In this document: positions 3,443 through 32,139 of the stretch, one piece after another
Layout of the letters: every line of letters begins with the position of its first letter
Position numbering within the stretch: the first letter of the stretch is position 1
DNA from: an uncultured Lachnospiraceae bacterium
GTDB taxonomy: Bacteria > Bacillota > Clostridia > Lachnospirales > Lachnospiraceae
Assembly: GCA_900314255.1 (NCBI GenBank)
Contig: OMUP01000216.1
Location: 1 to 33,779 of the forward strand
Length of the DNA: 33,779 nucleotides
Reading direction: 5' to 3'
The notes under the pieces: generated by a model
Told to the model about the DNA's origin: nothing
Seen by the model: the letters and a program-made list of their open reading frames with translations, nothing else
Database searches by the model: none
Position numbers and translations under genes: made by a program

Positions 3443-4096
3443 TTATTCATTGTTCTGTTTGGTCGCGTTTTTTTCCGCTTCCATCACCTGTGTCAGAGAC
3501 GGCGAAGGCTTTTCATCGCCCGCGTCAAACGGCCCTTTGCCGCCGGCGACTTCTTTCAGAGTCTGCTGCATATGGATGATCCGGGCGGCTTCCTTCATCA
3601 GATAGTGGTCCGTTTCGATCAGTTCCTCCGCCGAAATATTTGTCATCAGCCAGTCCTTGATCATGGAGGCCACGCCGCCGCAGAAGAAGTAGGATCCGGT
3701 CCGGATCACCCGGTCGTCGCAGGCCGGAAACAGGATCTCCGCATAGCACTCCACCAGAGGCATCATACTCTCAATAAATGTATCCTTGAAAGAATTCTGG
3801 CCGCTGTAGGAAAAGACGGACCGGTAGTACGTGCGCTCCGAGGCCAGATATTTGAGCAGCGCATCAATCATGTTCATGAAGTTCTTGTATCCGACTTCTG
3901 CCGCCTTGTCCATGAATTCATTCCGGAAGATCCAGCTGACGAGATCGTATTTGTCACGGAAATGATAGTAAAAACTCTTGCGGGTGATGCCGCAGTTTTC
4001 GCAGATCTCCCCGACGGAAATTTTCTCGAATTCCTTGCCCTCGGTCAGCTTTTTCAGGCTTTCCGCAATCGCTTCTCTTGTATTGCCTTTTTCCAT
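3443..4096 (-). CDS. TetR/AcrR family regulator (DhaS-like)
   Basis: The protein has 217 residues. The N-terminal helix-turn-helix (about residues 8-55) contains EKISVGEICENCGITRKSFY followed by YHFRDKYDLVSWIF, the typical TetR signature. The remaining all-helical part resembles the C-terminal domain of the DhaS subgroup, and the ligand is unknown. It starts 7 bases after the stop of the P-type ATPase (weak GTGAGG ribosome site), so it is the last gene of the metal-efflux operon. It may be a general regulator carried along rather than the metal sensor, since a proper ArsR sensor heads the operon. The C-terminal tail is charged and not conserved-looking. Confidence 0.87.
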   Translation of the reverse strand: MEKGNTREAIAESLKKLTEGKEFEKISVGEICENCGITRKSFYYHFRDKYDLVSWIFRNEFMDKAAEVGYKNFMNMIDALLKYLASERTYYRSVFSYSGQNSFKDTFIESMMPLVECYAEILFPACDDRVIRTGSYFFCGGVASMIKDWLMTNISAEELIETDHYLMKEAARIIHMQQTLKEVAGGKGPFDAGDEKPSPSLTQVMEAEKNATKQNNE

Positions 4097-4103
4097 ACAC
4101 GCC

Positions 4104-5993
4104 TCACTTTACCCGGAGCATCCGCATAGCATTCAGAATGCAGATCACCGAAACACCGACATCCGCAAATACTGCCTCCCACATGTTGGCCACGGCAAAC
4201 AGGCTCATGACCATAACCGCAATCTTCACCACAAGAGCAAAGGTGATGTTCTCATAGACAATCCGCATCGTCCGGCGGGCCAGCCACACGGTCTTGGAGA
4301 CCTTGCGGGTGTTGTCATCCATCAGTACGATGTCGGCCGCCTCGATCGCGGCGTCGCTTCCCATGCTCCCCATGGCAAATCCCACATCAGCCCGCGTAAT
4401 GACCGGCGCATCGTTGATGCCGTCCCCGACAAATGCCAATCTGCTCTTCTTATCTTCTTTTGACAGAAGTTCTTCGACCTTTCCGACCTTGTCTGCCGGA
4501 AGCAGATCGGTGTACACCTCATCGATCCCGAGTTCTTCGGCCACGGCCTCGCCGCTCGCCTTTCTGTCGCCGGTGAGCATAACCGTCTTCGCGACCCCTG
4601 CCTCATGCAGTTCCCGGATGGCTTCTTTTGCCTCCGGCTTCACGATATCCGAGATGACAATCGCTCCGAGATACTTTCCTTCCTCGGATACATACACGAC
4701 CGTGCCGGCCGTTTCCACCGGCGGTACCGCAACACCTTCGGCATCCATCAGCTTCCGGTTTCCGGCGCAGATCTTCTGTCCGTTCACGACAACCGACACA
4801 CCGTGCCCGGCTGTCTCTGTATTTTCGCTGATTTCGGAAGCGTCAACAGCGGCAGGATCATTTCCCGTCTGCGCATATGCCCGGCGGATCGAATCCGCCA
4901 CCGGATGCGTAGAGTAATGCTCCGCGCACGCCGCTTTCTTCAGAAGTTCCTCTTTGCTTACTTCTCCGGCCGGCAGAATCTGCGTTACGGAGAATTCGCC
5001 GCGGGTCAGAGTTCCGGTCTTGTCGAACACGACTGTTTTCAGCTTTGCCGCAGCCTCAAGGTAGTTGCTGCCCTTGATCAGAATTCCCATGTGAGACGCC
5101 GCGCCGATCCCGCCGAAAAATGTAAGCGGCACCGACAGAACAAAAGCGCATGGACAGGATACAACCAGGAAAATGCAGGCGCTCTTCAGGCCCTGCTGCC
5201 AGGACACGCCGGTGAGCAGCGGAAGCAGGATCGCCACGGCGACCGCGGCAAATACCACGACCGGCGTGTAGTACCTGGCGAACCGTGTCACGAAATTCTC
5301 GGTGCGGGCCTTGCGGTCGGAAGCATTTTCCACAAGGTCGAGAACCCGGCTGACGGTTGAATCTTCGTAGGCTTTTTCGGCGCGGATCTTGAGCACGCCG
5401 TCTCCGTTCACGCAGCCGCTGATGACTTCATCGCCGGTGTGAACGGAACGGGGAACCGATTCGCCGGTGAGCGCCGCCGTGTCGAGCATCGAGCTTCCTT
5501 CCGTGACTACGCCGTCAAGCGGCACTCTCTCGCCCGGGCGGACAACAAAGATGTCGCCGACCTTCACTTCTTCCGGATCAATCTGCGTGAGCTTCCCGTC
5601 CCGCTCCACATTGGCATATTCCGGTGCGATATCCATCAGCTGTGTGATAGACCGGCGGGAGCGGCCAACGGCGAAATCTTCGAAGAACTCGCCGACCTGG
5701 TAGAACAGCATGACGGCGACGGCCTCGGAGTACTCGCCGATCGCCAGCGCGCCGAACGTCGCCACCATCATCAGGAAATTCTCGTCAAATACCTGGCCGT
5801 GACTGATGTTGATGATCGACTTCCGGATTACTTTCCACCCGACCATGCAGTACGGGATCAGGAAAAGAAGGAAGTTCACCGGAAAGACATTAAGTGAAGC
5901 GCCGGGCCCGATGTGCAGAATGATCAGAATCAGCGCATACAGCGCGCCGGTCAGACAGATCCATCTCAACTGTTTTTTCTGTTTTTCGTCCAT
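4104..5993 (-). CDS. Heavy-metal translocating P1B-type ATPase (Zn/Cd/Pb class)
   Basis: This is a membrane pump that exports divalent soft metals using ATP, 629 residues long. Visible are the TGES actuator loop (176-179), the CPC metal site (280-282) in FLVVSCPCAF, the phosphorylation site DKTGT (Asp324), the HP locus (STHPVA, His363), GDGINDAP, and the end K...ADVGVSVICILNAMR. A lysine in transmembrane helix 7 and an aspartate in helix 8 together with CPC are marks of the P1B-2 (ZntA/CadA) subgroup rather than copper pumps. The N-terminal metal-binding domain that many relatives carry is absent. A free 69-residue HMA protein encoded just upstream takes its place. The ribosome site GGAGG precedes the ATG at 5993. 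Confidence 0.95.
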   Translation of the reverse strand: MDEKQKKQLRWICLTGALYALILIILHIGPGASLNVFPVNFLLFLIPYCMVGWKVIRKSIINISHGQVFDENFLMMVATFGALAIGEYSEAVAVMLFYQVGEFFEDFAVGRSRRSITQLMDIAPEYANVERDGKLTQIDPEEVKVGDIFVVRPGERVPLDGVVTEGSSMLDTAALTGESVPRSVHTGDEVISGCVNGDGVLKIRAEKAYEDSTVSRVLDLVENASDRKARTENFVTRFARYYTPVVVFAAVAVAILLPLLTGVSWQQGLKSACIFLVVSCPCAFVLSVPLTFFGGIGAASHMGILIKGSNYLEAAAKLKTVVFDKTGTLTRGEFSVTQILPAGEVSKEELLKKAACAEHYSTHPVADSIRRAYAQTGNDPAAVDASEISENTETAGHGVSVVVNGQKICAGNRKLMDAEGVAVPPVETAGTVVYVSEEGKYLGAIVISDIVKPEAKEAIRELHEAGVAKTVMLTGDRKASGEAVAEELGIDEVYTDLLPADKVGKVEELLSKEDKKSRLAFVGDGINDAPVITRADVGFAMGSMGSDAAIEAADIVLMDDNTRKVSKTVWLARRTMRIVYENITFALVVKIAVMVMSLFAVANMWEAVFADVGVSVICILNAMRMLRVK

Positions 5994-6041: not shown

Positions 6042-6251
6042 TTATTTTCTGATCTCAAACTCCGGCTCGATTTTTCTCGCTGTCTTAAGCGCCTTGTCAA
6101 GGAGCGCATCATCGATCATATCCGCTTCCAGTGTCATCTTCTGCGTCATGAAATTCACCTGTGCCTTTACTCCCGGCATCTCATTCAGCGCATTTTCGAC
6201 CTTGGCCGCACAATTTGCGCAGTCTACCGCGATGTTGAACTTCTTTCTCAT
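6042..6251 (-). CDS. Small heavy-metal-associated (HMA) domain protein
   Basis: This is a 69-residue ferredoxin-like HMA domain. It has the metal site C-A-N-C in NIAVDCANCAAKVENAL, the loop NEMPGV and the strand QVNFMTQKMTLE. It probably binds the metal that the pump next to it exports and may deliver it, acting as a detached N-terminal domain of that ATPase. The start at 6251 follows GAGGAAAAG. A longer in-frame start at 6332 would overlap the ArsR gene and lacks a ribosome site. It lies 10 bases after arsR and 48 bases before the ATPase. Confidence 0.9.
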   Translation of the reverse strand: MRKKFNIAVDCANCAAKVENALNEMPGVKAQVNFMTQKMTLEADMIDDALLDKALKTARKIEPEFEIRK

Positions 6252-6261
6252 GTTCTTTTCC

Positions 6262-6558
6262 TCACTTTCCGCTCTCTGCCTCGCGCACATGTTCAAGTCC
6301 CATAAAGAGAATCGTCCGCACATGGTCATCATCCAGCGCGTAAAAGATCTGCTTCCCGTCGCGCCGGCTCCTCACCAGTCTGGAATCCCGCAGGATCCGC
6401 AGCTGATGGGACACCGCCGACTGGGTCATGTCCATTCTCTCCGCAATGTCACTCACGCTGAACTCGCCTTCCATCAGAAGTCCCAGAATCCGCACGCGGG
6501 TCGGATCGCCGAATATGCGGAACACATCGGCGACATTTTTCACCTCCTGATCGTCCAT
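6262..6558 (-). CDS. ArsR/SmtB family metal sensor, zinc/cobalt (CzrA/SmtB) type
   Basis: This is a 98-residue winged-helix repressor. The core reads FGDPTRVRILGLLMEGEFSV, then the recognition helix MTQSAVSHQLRILRDS. The last helix carries D77-x-H79-x10-H90-x2-E93, exactly the alpha-5 zinc-site pattern of SmtB/CzrA. The cysteine pair in the recognition helix used by ArsR/CadC sensors is missing, so zinc (or cobalt/nickel) is more likely than arsenic or cadmium/lead. It is the first gene of the efflux operon and would be released from the inverted repeat at 6582-6613 when metal binds. Confidence 0.93.
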   Translation of the reverse strand: MDDQEVKNVADVFRIFGDPTRVRILGLLMEGEFSVSDIAERMDMTQSAVSHQLRILRDSRLVRSRRDGKQIFYALDDDHVRTILFMGLEHVREAESGK

Positions 6559-6727: not shown

Positions 6728-6890
6728 GCGCATAAGCCTCGCGCTTCGTGCTCCCGCAGCGCAACGAAAACCCGCATTCCCGTCACGCTTCGCGTGACTC
6801 CATGCGGGTTTCCGTTGCCGTGCCTGAAGCCATCCCGGATCGGACTGCAAGCAGTCCATCCGGTCCTGGCTTCGGCACTGGCTTATGCGC
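6728..6890. repeat. Branched palindromic element (closing stem plus two long arms)
   Basis: A perfect 11-bp closing stem, GCGCATAAGCC (6728-6738) with GGCTTATGCGC (6880-6890), encloses two long inverted repeats. Arm A (6761-6818) has 16 paired bases with one mismatch (6761-6777/6802-6818) and a 6-bp TCACGC/GCGTGA tip (6783-6788/6792-6797). Arm B (6820-6878) has GTGCC/GGCAC, GAAGCCA/TGGCTTC, CCGGAT/ATCCGG and GGACTGC/GCAGTCC stacked with small bulges. A smaller stem is possible at 6741-6762. No ORF with a ribosome site is present. It lies between the mrp terminator and the efflux promoter and its role is unknown. Confidence 0.7.
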
Positions 6891-6932
6891 TAAAAGAAAC
6901 GCAGAGGAGCTGTGTTTCGGGCTCTTCTGCGT
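6889..6932 (-). terminator. Terminator of mrp
   Basis: A 12-bp stem with one mismatch (6899-6910 / 6921-6932) and a 10-base loop is followed on the minus strand by TTTCTTTTA. It lies 26 bases past the mrp stop and directly abuts the branched palindrome. Confidence 0.85.
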
Positions 6933-11061: not shown

Positions 11062-11718
11062 TCATTTGCCGAAGACTGACTCGTAATCCTTCTTGAAACG
11101 GGCGATGCCGATGTCGGTGAGCGGATGCTTCGTCATCTGCATCAGAACCTTGTACGGTACCGTCGCGATGTCGGCTCCGGTCTTCGCGCACTCCACAATG
11201 TGCATCGGATGGCGGATGGATGCGCAGATCACCTGCGTCGTGATATCCGGATACATCTCGAAGATCTGCATGATGTCCTCGATCAGCGTGATGCCGTCGG
11301 TAGAGATGTCATCGAGTCTTCCCAGGAACGGGGATACATATGTGGCGCCGGCTCTGGCCGCCAGCAGTGCCTGCGACGCAGAGAACACAAGCGTCACATT
11401 GGTGTGAATGCCTTCCGCCGTGAGAACCTTGACAGCCTTCAGGCCTTCCGTGGTCATCGGGATCTTCACGACCATGTTCTTGTGGATCTTTGCGATCTCG
11501 CGCCCTTCTGCGATCATGCCCTCGGCGGTCGTGGTGCTCGCCTTGACCTCACCCGAAATCGGCCCGTCCACGATGTCGGTGATCTCCTTCAGCGTCTTCA
11601 TGTAATCCTTGCCCTCTTTGGCAATGAGGGATGGATTGGTGGTTACGCCGGAGATAATTCCCATGTCCCAGGCTTCTCTGATCTCGTCTACATTGGCTGT
11701 GTCGATGAAAAACTGCAT
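11062..11718 (-). CDS. tal: Transaldolase of the TalC/FSA subfamily
   Basis: This short (218-residue) TIM-barrel aldolase transfers a dihydroxyacetone unit between sugar phosphates in the non-oxidative pentose phosphate route. Asp6 (FIDTANV), the GVTTNPS loop and the Schiff-base Lys85 in VVKIPMT are present. Two positions that separate real transaldolases from fructose-6-phosphate aldolase read Glu57 and Phe131 (YVSPF). E. coli FsaA has Gln and Tyr there, so transaldolase activity is favoured. It is the last gene of the operon, 11 bases after the cupin gene, with AAAGGAG upstream. A role on a less common substrate is possible because of the operon context. Confidence 0.93.
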
Positions 11719-28869: not shown

Positions 28870-30441
28870 ATGATCATGAACAAGACAATTGATTTAAACC
28901 GCTCTGTATACGAGCTGGTGACAGAATACCCGGAACTTGCAGACATCATGGCAGACCTGGGATTTACCGAAATCAAAAAGCCGGCCATGCTTCACTCGGT
29001 CGGAAAGCTGATGACTCTTCCGCGCGGCGCGAAGATGAAGAACATTCCCATGGGAGATGTCATCGCCGCTCTGATGCAGCACGGATTTACGCTTGCCGGC
29101 TCCATGCCGGAAAAAGCCGCCGCGGCTGCCGGCTCCGCCGGAGATGATACACCGCAGACGTCTGCTGCCGGCGCACCGGCCGCATCTTCTGAAGCATCGC
29201 GCATGGCACTGCTCAAGAGCTATCTGCGTCGGCTCGCCGCCGGGGAGTCTCTGGAGAATGTCCGCGCGGATTTCGTCAGGAATTTCCGGGACGTAGAGGC
29301 TTCGGAGATCATGAAGGCTGAGCAGGAACTGATGAAAGAAGGAACGCCGCTGGCAGATGTACAAAAGCTCTGCGACATCCACTCCGCCCTCTTCCACGGC
29401 GCGACAAGGGAAGAACAGATCGCCAACGCCGAAGCAGAAGTAGCTGCCTCCATGCGGCGGGCGCAGGAAAAAGGCGCGCAGAAGGATTACAAGAACAAAA
29501 ATGAACGCGCCGCGATCCTCTCCGCCATTCCCGGTCACCCGCTGAACACGCTGAAAAAGGAAAACAAAGCGCTGGAAGGGCTGATCGCGCAGGCCAGGGA
29601 ACGGCTTGATGCCAGCGAAGAACTCGGCGGCATCCTGGACAGCATCCGGGAACTCTCCATTCACTACGCCAAAAAAGGAGATCTTCTGTATCCGCTGCTG
29701 AAAGTGAATTACGACATCTCCGGCCCTTCAGATGTCATGTGGACCGTCGACGACGAGATCCGGGACGAGCTTGCCTTTCTTGCCGGTCAGGAAGAGAGAA
29801 ACGCCGCATGGGAACAGCGTGTCCGCGCCGTGCTTAAGCGCGCGGAAGAGATGATCTACAAAGAGAATAACATTCTCTTCCCCATCTGCGCGGTCAACTT
29901 CACTGAGGAAGAGTGGATGAGCATCTACCGGGATTCAAAAGATTACGCCGACTGCCTTGGCGTGGTTAAGAAAACCTGGGCGAAGGCTGAGACGCAGGCG
30001 GCCGCACAGCTTAATACGGCTGCCCCGCTGAAGGCAACGGCAGCCTCCGACGGGGAGGAAGAGGTCGTGATGCCGGGCGGCCATATGAGCGTCAGCCAGC
30101 TAACGGCGCTTCTTAACACCATCCCGATGGAGATCACATTCGTCGACGCGGACAACATCAACCGCTTCTTCAACGAAGGGCCGAAAGTCTTCAAGCGCCC
30201 TGCCATGGCCATCGGCCGCGAAGTATTCTCCTGCCACCCGCCGAAGGTGGAGCCCATCGTCCGCTCCATCATCGAGGATTTCCGCGCCGGGAGAAAAGAC
30301 TGCGTCCCGATCTGGATGAAGAAGAACGGCCGCACCGTCTATGTAAACTACATGGCTGTACGCGACAAAGAGCACAACTATCTGGGCACTCTGGAAGTCG
30401 TACAGGACATGGAATTCGCAAGAGAGCACTTTGCGGATTGA
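28870..30441 (+). CDS. DUF1858-DUF438-hemerythrin-PAS protein
   Basis: The protein has 523 residues. An N-terminal DUF1858 domain (about 4-75) is joined by an Ala-rich linker (about 82-108) to DUF438 (about 110-185). A hemerythrin-like helical domain follows (about 215-360) with GHPLNTLKKEN (His223), SIHYAKKGDLLYPLLK (His265) and KENNILFP. The C-terminus is a PAS domain (about 408-518) with GREVFSCHPPK. The combination suggests sensing of oxygen, nitric oxide or redox state through bound iron and possibly heme; no output domain is visible. The ATG at 28876 is an equally possible start. It converges with the radical SAM gene across the palindromic array. Confidence 0.9.
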   Translation: MIMNKTIDLNRSVYELVTEYPELADIMADLGFTEIKKPAMLHSVGKLMTLPRGAKMKNIPMGDVIAALMQHGFTLAGSMPEKAAAAAGSAGDDTPQTSAAGAPAASSEASRMALLKSYLRRLAAGESLENVRADFVRNFRDVEASEIMKAEQELMKEGTPLADVQKLCDIHSALFHGATREEQIANAEAEVAASMRRAQEKGAQKDYKNKNERAAILSAIPGHPLNTLKKENKALEGLIAQARERLDASEELGGILDSIRELSIHYAKKGDLLYPLLKVNYDISGPSDVMWTVDDEIRDELAFLAGQEERNAAWEQRVRAVLKRAEEMIYKENNILFPICAVNFTEEEWMSIYRDSKDYADCLGVVKKTWAKAETQAAAQLNTAAPLKATAASDGEEEVVMPGGHMSVSQLTALLNTIPMEITFVDADNINRFFNEGPKVFKRPAMAIGREVFSCHPPKVEPIVRSIIEDFRAGRKDCVPIWMKKNGRTVYVNYMAVRDKEHNYLGTLEVVQDMEFAREHFAD

Positions 30442-30475
30442 CAGCGGCCGACGGGCGCAAGAAGACCGGCAGACG

Positions 30476-30971
30476 CATCGGAACTTGCGGAAAGTTGTGT
30501 TTCTGATGAACGACGGTCGTCCGTGCTCCGACCCATATTTGTTTCATGCATCGGGATTGATGGAAAGTGTTCAATCCCGATGCATATTTTTACGTCCCGC
30601 CAAACGGCTTTCATCGGAATTATCCCGAAGTCAGATATTCCGATGCTTTTAAAGGCTGATTTCAGGGCTGCCGTCATCGGAGCCCCCTCTCGTCCTGCTT
30701 TTCCGATGACAGAATCGCGAAAAAAAGGTTAAAAAAGCATCGGTTTTCTCATTTGAAATTCATTTCCGATGACAGCAGTCAGAAAACAGGACACAAAAGG
30801 CATCGGTTTTCTCATTTGAAATCCATTTCCGATGACAGCAGCCAAAAAGCAGGACACAAAAGACATCGGATTTCCCTTTTGAAATCTATTTCCGATGACA
30901 GCACCCAGAAAGCAGCCAGAAAACAGGACACAAAAGGCATCGGTTTTCCCATTTGAATTTCATTTCCGATG
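30476..30971. repeat. Phased array of 34-bp CATCGG...CCGATG palindromic units
   Basis: Seven units run from CATCGG to CCGATG and each is exactly 34 bp: 30549-30582, 30612-30645, 30675-30708, 30738-30771, 30801-30834, 30864-30897 and 30938-30971. Start-to-start distances are 63, 63, 63, 63, 63 and 74. A degenerate unit (CATCGG 30476, CTGATG 30503-30508, 33 bp) lies 73 bp before the first. The 22-base interiors of units 1-3 are unrelated; those of units 4-7 are near-copies, as are their 29-base (once 40-base) linkers, which contain CAGGACACAAAAG. No protein gene is supported. The array fills the gap between two convergent genes. Confidence 0.9.
30546..30590 (+). terminator. Terminator of the DUF438 gene, formed by array unit 1
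   Basis: Array unit 1 extends into a perfect 15-bp stem (30546-30560/30571-30585) with a 10-base loop, followed by ATTTTTA. It is a strong plus-strand intrinsic terminator about 105 bases past the stop. Units 4-7 end in C plus four to six T on the minus strand and could stop transcripts coming from the radical SAM gene. Confidence 0.8.
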
Positions 30972-30990
30972 ACAGGCCCGAAATATCCGA

Positions 30991-32139
30991 TTATATCCCT
31001 TGTCCGGTCTGCAAAGAATAGTCTGCGACCTCCTGCATCCTGTCTCCGCAGGCCGTGAAAAACGTCTGATACGACCGGCAGTACCGGCTGATGTACCCGC
31101 CTTCTCCGTCCGGTATGCGGTCTCTGCGGCAGCCTGTCCGGCAGAGTGTCCGGAAGCGGCAGCTCTCGCAGCGCCTGCTCCGCTGCCGGGCAGACCCACT
31201 GATAAAGGACTCGCTCTTCTCAGAGTTCACCAGTTTTGTAAGCGGCCCGGAACAGATATTCCCCAGCTTCCACTCGTCCAGGCAGTAGAAATCGCACGGG
31301 TACACGCTTCCGTCCGCCTCAATGACGCACTGCATGCTGCAGATCCCGTTCATTGCGCAGGACTCCGGCCGCCTTCCCATCAGAATTCCGATCCAGTTTT
31401 CAAACTCCCGGATGTACGGCGCCCGGTTCTTCTTCCAGTCTTTGTACCAGAGGTCAAACAAGGCGACGAGAAACTCTCCGTACTGCTCATCATTCAGCCA
31501 GATGCCGTGCTCCGGTCCTCCGCCAAGAGGATCGAGGCACGGTATGTACTGCTGGTACTTCCAGCCATTTGCCATGAAATAACGGTAGATCTCACGAATG
31601 TGAGATACTGTCCGGGACGTCACAACGGTCAGGATATTAAAGTCGCACCCCGCCTGCTCCAGAAGCCGGAGCCCCGACTCTACGCGGCCGGCCGTCCGTT
31701 CACCGCCCGCCGTCTTCCGGCACGCATCGTGCACAGCCTGCGGTCCGTCAAGCGACACGCCGACGAGAACATGATGCCTGGCAAAAAGCCGGCACCAAGC
31801 ATCCGTGAGCAGCGTACCGTTGGTCTGAACTGAGAAGTGCACTTCCGAGCCCTGCGTGTTGTATATTTCCGTCAGGCGGAAGAAATTCTCAAAGAAAGGG
31901 ATTCCGGCCAGCAGCGGCTCTCCGCCCTGGAAGGCAAAGGTGTACGTCCCCCGCCCCTGACCGAGAATCTTGCGCACAATGCACTCCGCCGTGTCCTCTG
32001 TCATCTTCCCGTAAGACGCTGTCCGACGGTTCCTTGCCTCGTCATGATAGAAGCAGTAGGTGCAGTCCAGATTGCACTGCGAAGAGGCCGGTTTTATAAG
32101 GGCCGATCGAATTGGATGAGTTTCTGTGCGCAGCTGCAT
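30991..32139 (-). CDS. Radical SAM/SPASM enzyme, anaerobic sulfatase-maturase (anSME) type
   Basis: This 382-residue enzyme carries the cluster motif C22-x3-C26-x2-C29 (CNLDCTYCFYHDE), AFQGGEPLLAG, VQTNGTLL and the SPASM cysteines: CSMQCVIEADGSVYPCDFYC, CESCRFRTLCRTGC and a final CRSY. The family oxidises a Cys or Ser of sulfatases to formylglycine under anaerobic conditions. No sulfatase gene is in the window, so the target must be elsewhere. GGAGGGGGAAT precedes the ATG at 32139. It follows queT by 15 bases and is probably cotranscribed. Confidence 0.9.
   Translation of the reverse strand: MQLRTETHPIRSALIKPASSQCNLDCTYCFYHDEARNRRTASYGKMTEDTAECIVRKILGQGRGTYTFAFQGGEPLLAGIPFFENFFRLTEIYNTQGSEVHFSVQTNGTLLTDAWCRLFARHHVLVGVSLDGPQAVHDACRKTAGGERTAGRVESGLRLLEQAGCDFNILTVVTSRTVSHIREIYRYFMANGWKYQQYIPCLDPLGGGPEHGIWLNDEQYGEFLVALFDLWYKDWKKNRAPYIREFENWIGILMGRRPESCAMNGICSMQCVIEADGSVYPCDFYCLDEWKLGNICSGPLTKLVNSEKSESFISGSARQRSRRCESCRFRTLCRTGCRRDRIPDGEGGYISRYCRSYQTFFTACGDRMQEVADYSLQTGQGI

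Follow-up and report, generated by a model that had tools for sequence, protein, structure and literature searches.

REPIN-RAYT systems, in the account given in PMC3116915, comprise palindromic extragenic repeats that fall into several groups, each lying near a specific nuclease-family gene and recurring in further copies genome-wide. In BIME arrays, according to PMC2817692, REP palindromes recur at regular spacing and are bound by several proteins. In TIGR-Tas, as outlined in PMC12045711, an array lies up- or downstream of a gene that sometimes carries a nuclease, and the repeats are conserved within loci and different between them; the Tas proteins contain a Nop domain, and guide RNAs of 36 nt with variable spacers are made from the arrays. 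Repeats and a nuclease gene are also what type III toxin-antitoxin (ToxIN) loci, in the accounts available to us, share with the system described here. CRISPR arrays have partly palindromic repeats at regular spacing, and RAYTs are tyrosine (HUH) enzymes.

We analysed a stretch of 33,779 nt from a Lachnospiraceae genome (contig OMUP01000216.1; hereafter the window), in which a palindromic array lies between two genes (Table 1). This array probably represents a set of double-stranded sites for a stand-alone, predicted nuclease-family protein of about 270 aa, which is encoded elsewhere beside its own array; the sites are spaced by whole helical turns, and their arms are specific to the homolog.

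An exact pattern search returned seven CATCGG-N22-CCGATG units in the window, with five steps of 63 bp followed by one of 74 bp, and thereby confirmed the original prediction, which had been made from the letters of this DNA, in the number of units, the spacing of the hexamers, the starts and the steps; its degenerate upstream unit and its placement of the array between convergent genes also proved correct. With up to two mismatches allowed, the window contains 16 matches, compared with a mean of 2.32 and a largest count of 7 in 100 dinucleotide-preserving shuffles. Units 4–7 had been read as tandem copies and units 1–3 as separate, which was borne out with one amendment: the copies in the tandem family are 67–82% identical to the first over 90 nt, and units 1 and 2 stand outside it, but unit 3 joins by its right end only. 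We saw no link between either flanking gene and the array, and an Rfam search of window positions 30300–31100 gave no match up to E 1. Unit 1 lies inside a 15-bp perfect inverted repeat with a T-rich stretch next to it (30546–30592), and may, to judge by these letters, double as the terminator of the upstream gene; an automatic terminator scan, whose limit on loop length it exceeds, did not list it.

Table 1 Features of the phased array and its neighbours (positions in the window).
Feature	Position	Strand	Remark
Degenerate unit CATCGG-N21-CTGATG	30476..30508		73 bp before unit 1
Unit 1, CATCGG-N22-CCGATG	30549..30582		exact pattern search
Unit 2	30612..30645		exact pattern search
Unit 3	30675..30708		exact pattern search
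Unit 4	30738..30771		tandem relative of units 5–7
Unit 5	30801..30834		tandem relative of units 4, 6, 7
Unit 6	30864..30897		tandem relative of units 4, 5, 7
Unit 7	30938..30971		step of 74 bp from unit 6; linker enlarged from 29 to 40
Whole phased array	30476..30971		dispersed copy; gene of the presumed partner lies at another place in this genome (locus L087, G000:C15:28897-29694)
DUF1858/DUF438/hemerythrin/PAS protein gene, flanking bystander	28870..30441	+	convergent toward array
Radical SAM/SPASM protein gene, flanking bystander	30991..32139	-	convergent toward array

We then followed the CATCGG units across genomes. The window's genome (G000) contains two further units at C11:17515 and C11:17578, a step of 63 bp, and CATCGG recurs once more after another such step. 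It also carries two isolated exact units (C31:87-120 and C111:63169-63202), similar to ones in G001 or G008, which are possibly coding coincidences. Arrays occur in three of the 11 genomes of the genus when the window's genome is counted (two of the ten other congeners). Within the family, a three-half-site pattern matched in 10 of 397 genomes, many times in four (G000, G008, G222 and G373) and once in each of the remaining six; the latter matches (G050, G121, G224, G246, G269 and G276) look like chance and were set aside. The original prediction had held that the same hexamer spacing at many unrelated loci would speak against it, and on this point isolated, chance-like matches do exist (the two exact units of this genome and the single three-half-site matches of the six family genomes), but 387 of the 397 family genomes have no three-half-site match.

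A scan of contigs from 84,980 species for two linked units yielded 53 stretches in ten assemblies, nine from Lachnospiraceae (including G222, G373, G001 and G008) and one from Acidimicrobiia. The Acidimicrobiia match (L035, about 3960–4250) is an ordinary, unrelated tandem repeat overlapping long ORFs, and was excluded from the unit and linker totals. G222 contains 155 exact units. Only six of the 59 CATCGG arrays with at least two units have most of their length within an ORF of 250 aa or more, and the flanking genes, both seen for 40 arrays, are tandem in 23 cases, convergent in 11 and divergent in 6; the arrays are therefore mostly intergenic and, taken together, are not promoter elements. 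A distant blastn search of the window array against phages and plasmids gave no match. Arms and phase are kept across genera that have different interiors, which refutes the derivation of all units from one recent duplication.

Spacing between units was regular. Gaps of up to 60 bp from CCGATG to CATCGG fell, in 223 of 226 cases, into classes of 17–21 (n = 59), 27–30 (n = 155), 38–40 (n = 8) and 50 bp (n = 1), although the 226 gaps cannot be taken as independent, since many of the arrays are related copies. These classes sit one helical turn apart, and the three off-class gaps measure 2, 5 and 8 bp. The patterns used to retrieve the loci allowed gaps of 14–44, so the empty ranges within those limits were not made by the search; the interior, for which the search patterns favoured 22, was 22 in 271 of 300 hexamer pairs at most 60 bp apart. 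Beside homologs of the nuclease-family gene, the modal step at all 51 loci (some of them orthologs and not fully independent, with one locus that showed only double steps left out) was 52–54 (19 loci), 62–64 (19), 71–75 (8), 84–86 (4) or 94 bp (1), with a Rayleigh R of 0.857 at 10.35 bp and 0.855 at 10.5 bp, compared with a null maximum of 0.540 among 2000 random sets. Random spacing in relatives, named beforehand as the outcome that would count against the array, is refuted by gaps quantised in whole helical turns. Whole-turn gaps within and between genomes strongly support the proposed selection on spacing and, together with arms that resist substitution, the idea that the protein sites share a single DNA face. 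Such spacing speaks for a protein bound along one side of the helix without naming which protein, and we are highly confident that a protein acts on double-stranded DNA at these units.

The arms behaved as recognition sequence. Over 269 units the half site reads approximately D-CATCGG-R-A-W (DCATCGGRAW), the hexamer itself being fixed by how units were selected. Among 100 non-redundant units, the purines adjoining the two arms vary independently of each other (Watson-Crick in 46 of 100, 48 in shuffles). The base outside the arm (positions -1/34) matches across genomes (80 vs 39), but this apparent covariation was gone when we shuffled within genomes (80 vs 78), and the same within-genome shuffling left no excess pairing at 14 offsets beside the arms; the -1/34 pattern fits recognition specificities that would differ between hosts, not pairing. 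At four orthologous array pairs, differences affected 0/72, 0/24, 1/24 and 7/51 arm positions, against 38/412, 26/91, 41/194 and 79/239 other positions in the same order (8/171 vs 184/936 in total), and the arms thus resist substitution. An interior motif common to arm types was sought and rejected, since candidates such as AGCAAG, found in 5 of 62 families, did no better than column permutation, in which the most widely shared 6-mer reached 5–9 families.

Folded as RNA, 10 of 15 units reached z -2.8 or lower against shuffles, among them window units 1–3 (z -2.8 to -6.6) and four units of L075; complementary arms alone give part of this signal. The suggestion that the window array forms a chain of hairpins in RNA found no support overall: units 1–3 do fold better than shuffles, but units 4–7 fold little better than theirs (z -0.8 to -1.9), and the bases beside the arms vary independently.

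Clustering of ORFs near the arrays singled out one small protein, which adjoins arrays in four genomes; the cluster had one more member, a spurious ORF. The family is about 270 aa long and has homologs in all five CATCGG array-bearing genomes searched. Homologs are carried by 16 of 47 chosen genomes, including some array-free genomes of the family Lachnospiraceae; within the genus, they occur in 3/3 array-bearing species and in 0/8 array-free species. At E ≤ 1e-20, homologs turned up in 121 of the 396 Lachnospiraceae genomes that were at least 80% complete, the count per genome reaching six among at most six candidates scored. Eleven genomes matched in a phylum sample of 398, five Lachnospiraceae at full length and six outside the family over the C-terminal part only; the full-length family so far appears only in Lachnospiraceae. 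For the coding sequences, dN/dS was 0.06–0.22 in the eight closest between-genome pairs (dS saturated in four), and all 37 pairs of homologs within a genome are at most 61% identical.

Pfam scans of 23 homologs assigned no family and gave chance-level matches only (best E 0.013), and an NCBIfam search with two homologs also found none. PADLOC matches, obtained for two homologs, were partial and lay at the C-termini of long PDC-S68 profiles; PHROG matches of 23 homologs to resolvase and endonuclease families were weak. Six motif residues are identical in 102/102 homologs that lack stops and have at least 180 aa (7 of 109 dropped). An AlphaFold2 model, built from 12 sequences of which nine were only C-terminal pieces from viral loci, reached a pLDDT of 77.8 and a pTM of 0.51, and runs from a long helix through a beta-hairpin with an added strand and another long helix to an alpha/beta C-terminal domain. 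Complexes containing the Bax1 endonuclease or DrdV, a restriction enzyme, headed the Foldseek results, and both are PD-(D/E)XK enzymes. The best E was 0.015, and among 266 matches none had E ≤ 0.001. From the motif residues and this weak fold match, the C-terminal domain is predicted to be PD-(D/E)XK-like, and our guess is that the N-terminal part reads the arms.

Searches of mobile elements by tblastn returned three phage records, one with more than 80% coverage at 34% identity, and eight plasmid records with partial C-terminal matches, seven of which carry the annotation AAA ATPase or RecD-like helicase. Nine viral loci (L203-L211) match mainly the C-terminal end of open frames of 747–1138 aa. 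A viral or plasmid origin of the family was considered and rejected.

We investigated adjacency between gene and array with 109 distinct homologs, mostly the best-scoring ones, searching 1.2 kb on each side for any hexamer palindrome W-Nx-W' repeated with the same x. At least three exact units were present near 52/109 homologs but in only 1/191 control windows, which lay at least 3.5 kb from a homolog; the count was 50/107 after removal of L054 and L073, fetched only because of their arrays. Arrays of this size lie upstream of 45/104 homologs and downstream of 8/105, and at least two units are found upstream of 62/104 homologs versus 3/191 control windows. Contig ends explain few of the array-less homologs, because only 5 of 109 have less than 300 bp of upstream sequence. 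Neighbour clustering gave no other conserved neighbour, the next commonest families occurring in 6/99 loci. The presumed partner gene in the window's own genome has CAYCGG-type half sites on both sides, many at 62/63-bp steps.

Arms mostly differ between array-bearing homologs, and their similarity tracks protein identity (Mantel r 0.389 over 50 loci, 0/2000 permutations as high), with similar arms in 11/12 pairs at 60% identity or above versus 45/1213 pairs below; shared descent alone may make arms and proteins track each other in this manner. L101 (G373), with CATCGG arms, is only 34% identical to L083, whereas L085, L086, L088 and L111 are 43–48% identical to L083 yet have other arms; in G373 the CATCGG sites adjoin L101, the more distant of the two homologs, and the closer L088 has GCAACG arms. 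No homolog was found in the array-bearing stretches examined of the CADCOP, JAUNAN and JAUNDG assemblies. The homolog nearest the CATCGG type in G001 (L100, G001:C86:9932-10621) carries an in-frame TGA; no exact unit lies beside it, and G001 keeps CATCGG arrays elsewhere.

Dispersed arrays were also observed with other arms. In G189 (ACGGAC/GTCCGT) several contigs together contain 50 exact units, most of them spaced at 53-bp steps, and in the stretches examined 51 of its 56 linkers of up to 60 bp are exactly 17; such units are absent from G270 and G216, where the homologs come with different arms. The pattern GCATCA-N23-TGATGC occurs 15 times in G286, 9 times in G418 and 7 times in G129, and this one exact pattern has no match in G294, G209 or G215, the other three of the six genomes tried; the adjacent array of G294 has arms related, not identical, to the GCATCA type. 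In all, arrays dispersed through a genome and sharing the homolog-adjacent arms occur in G222, G008, G000 and G373 among the five CATCGG genomes searched, and in four genomes with other arms (G189, G286, G418 and G129).

The pairing of protein and sites rests on co-occurrence, adjacency, homolog-specific arms, whole-turn spacing, arm conservation and invariant candidate catalytic residues. The original interpretation of the array is upheld in part. Outside its view lay the likely partner, a gene of the nuclease family that has an array next to it and, at other homologs, different arms. We propose that each 34-bp unit presents two inverted half sites (about DCATCGGRAW) to which the predicted nuclease-family protein would bind. 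As the units are kept whole helical turns apart, bound proteins would align on one DNA face, where they could contact each other and bind cooperatively. The adjacent array would regulate, restrain or target the protein, and the dispersed arrays would provide further sites, spread or maintained through it. It is likely, in our judgement, that the cognate nuclease-family protein is the binder; that its activity spread the arrays is a more tentative proposal, which we doubt somewhat more than we credit, and simple autoregulation with incidental copies is unlikely.

The sites might instead bind a different protein, for example a nucleoid or transcription factor, with the nuclease gene merely one regulated gene. 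Such a reading would suit the position of most dispersed arrays, far from the nuclease gene, and the 57/109 homologs that have no array of at least three exact units within 1.2 kb. Arms differ, however, between paralogs of one genome (L085, L099 and L111 in G008; L088 and L101 in G373), and another binder would therefore have to diversify alongside the nuclease, whereas no second gene accompanies the family; we consider a different binder decidedly unlikely. Less probable still is a purely neutral origin, in which tandem or dispersed repeats arose by unequal crossing over or an unknown transposon and bind no protein. Tandem duplication is indeed evident in units 4–7 and in many gene-adjacent arrays, and aligned pieces of G222 arrays are about 68–92% identical to the gene-adjacent one, but repeats evolving neutrally would not keep clear of half-turn spacings in many types of arm, and their arms would not be protected from substitution; we give this origin very little credence.

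We assign an equally slight probability to a system acting at the RNA level, with units serving as hairpins in a transcript or as guides, as in type III toxin-antitoxin or TIGR-type arrays. Repeats upstream of a nuclease gene recall both systems, the folding of the units described above is in keeping with hairpins, in part through the complementary arms, and units of the G222 arrays, like window units 1–3, have differing interiors. Yet the spacing follows the B-DNA helix across unrelated arms, the bases beside the arms lack covariation, arrays are also found downstream of the gene or far away, and the units of one array often have almost the same interior, as guides do not; the window region has no Rfam match, and the Pfam scans found no Nop domain. 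The covariation results and helical spacing would argue in particular against a type III RNA-antitoxin role.

The preferred pairing of array and nuclease-family protein resembles REPIN-RAYT in having a single-copy gene, to judge by within-genome homologs that are at most 61% identical, with a repeat nearby and dispersed cognate repeats. It differs in that the homologs here have no Y1/HUH match in Pfam scans of 23, their motif residues and the weak fold search pointing to PD-(D/E)XK; in that REPINs have been characterised as hairpin structures of single-stranded DNA or mRNA, whereas the arms here do not covary as pairs; and in its multi-unit arrays with whole-turn spacing. By analogy, the best reading is of an organisation like that of REPIN-RAYT in what is probably an unrelated system. 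We know of no diversification of arms with such a partner nuclease in BIMEs, nor of a whole-turn rule. ToxIN repeats, in the accounts available, act as RNA with an endoribonuclease, whereas the present system has DNA-helix spacing and gene-free dispersed arrays. Unlike TIGR-Tas, the family lacks a Nop domain in Pfam scans and its arrays often have near-identical interiors; unlike CRISPR, only two short arms are conserved per unit, and clustering gave no recurrent second neighbour gene.

We rate this combination of features as categorically new, its separation from CRISPR being drawn from repeat layout and neighbour clustering, and among open-access articles in PMC we found no description of such a system. 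On balance we lean slightly towards a new bacterial chromosomal system, a double-stranded DNA counterpart of REPIN-RAYT, in which a restriction-like nuclease diversifies its DNA specificity and forms a helically phased lattice on its own dispersed arrays; the arrays may check or target the nuclease, and may be spread or maintained through it. About three in ten sampled Lachnospiraceae genomes carry the family, often with its own DNA sites. If the pairing is true, it offers dozens of natural protein-site pairs with differing specificities within one family, a system for studying the divergence of DNA recognition and the helical-phase control of assembly, and a means of asking why a bacterium keeps many nuclease sites in its own chromosome.

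Two further features accompany CATCGG arrays. In L018 (G222:C11), at about 280–530, 6180–6370, 6790–6900 and 11290–11470, a second, G+C-rich repeat (around CGCGCAAGCAGGC) occurs together with them. At L005, L049, L023 and L070, which come from three congeners and from UBA1753, a member of a different genus, CATCGG arrays sit inside or next to a gene cluster that by eye presumably encodes a chelatase and an ABC transporter for a metal or corrinoid.
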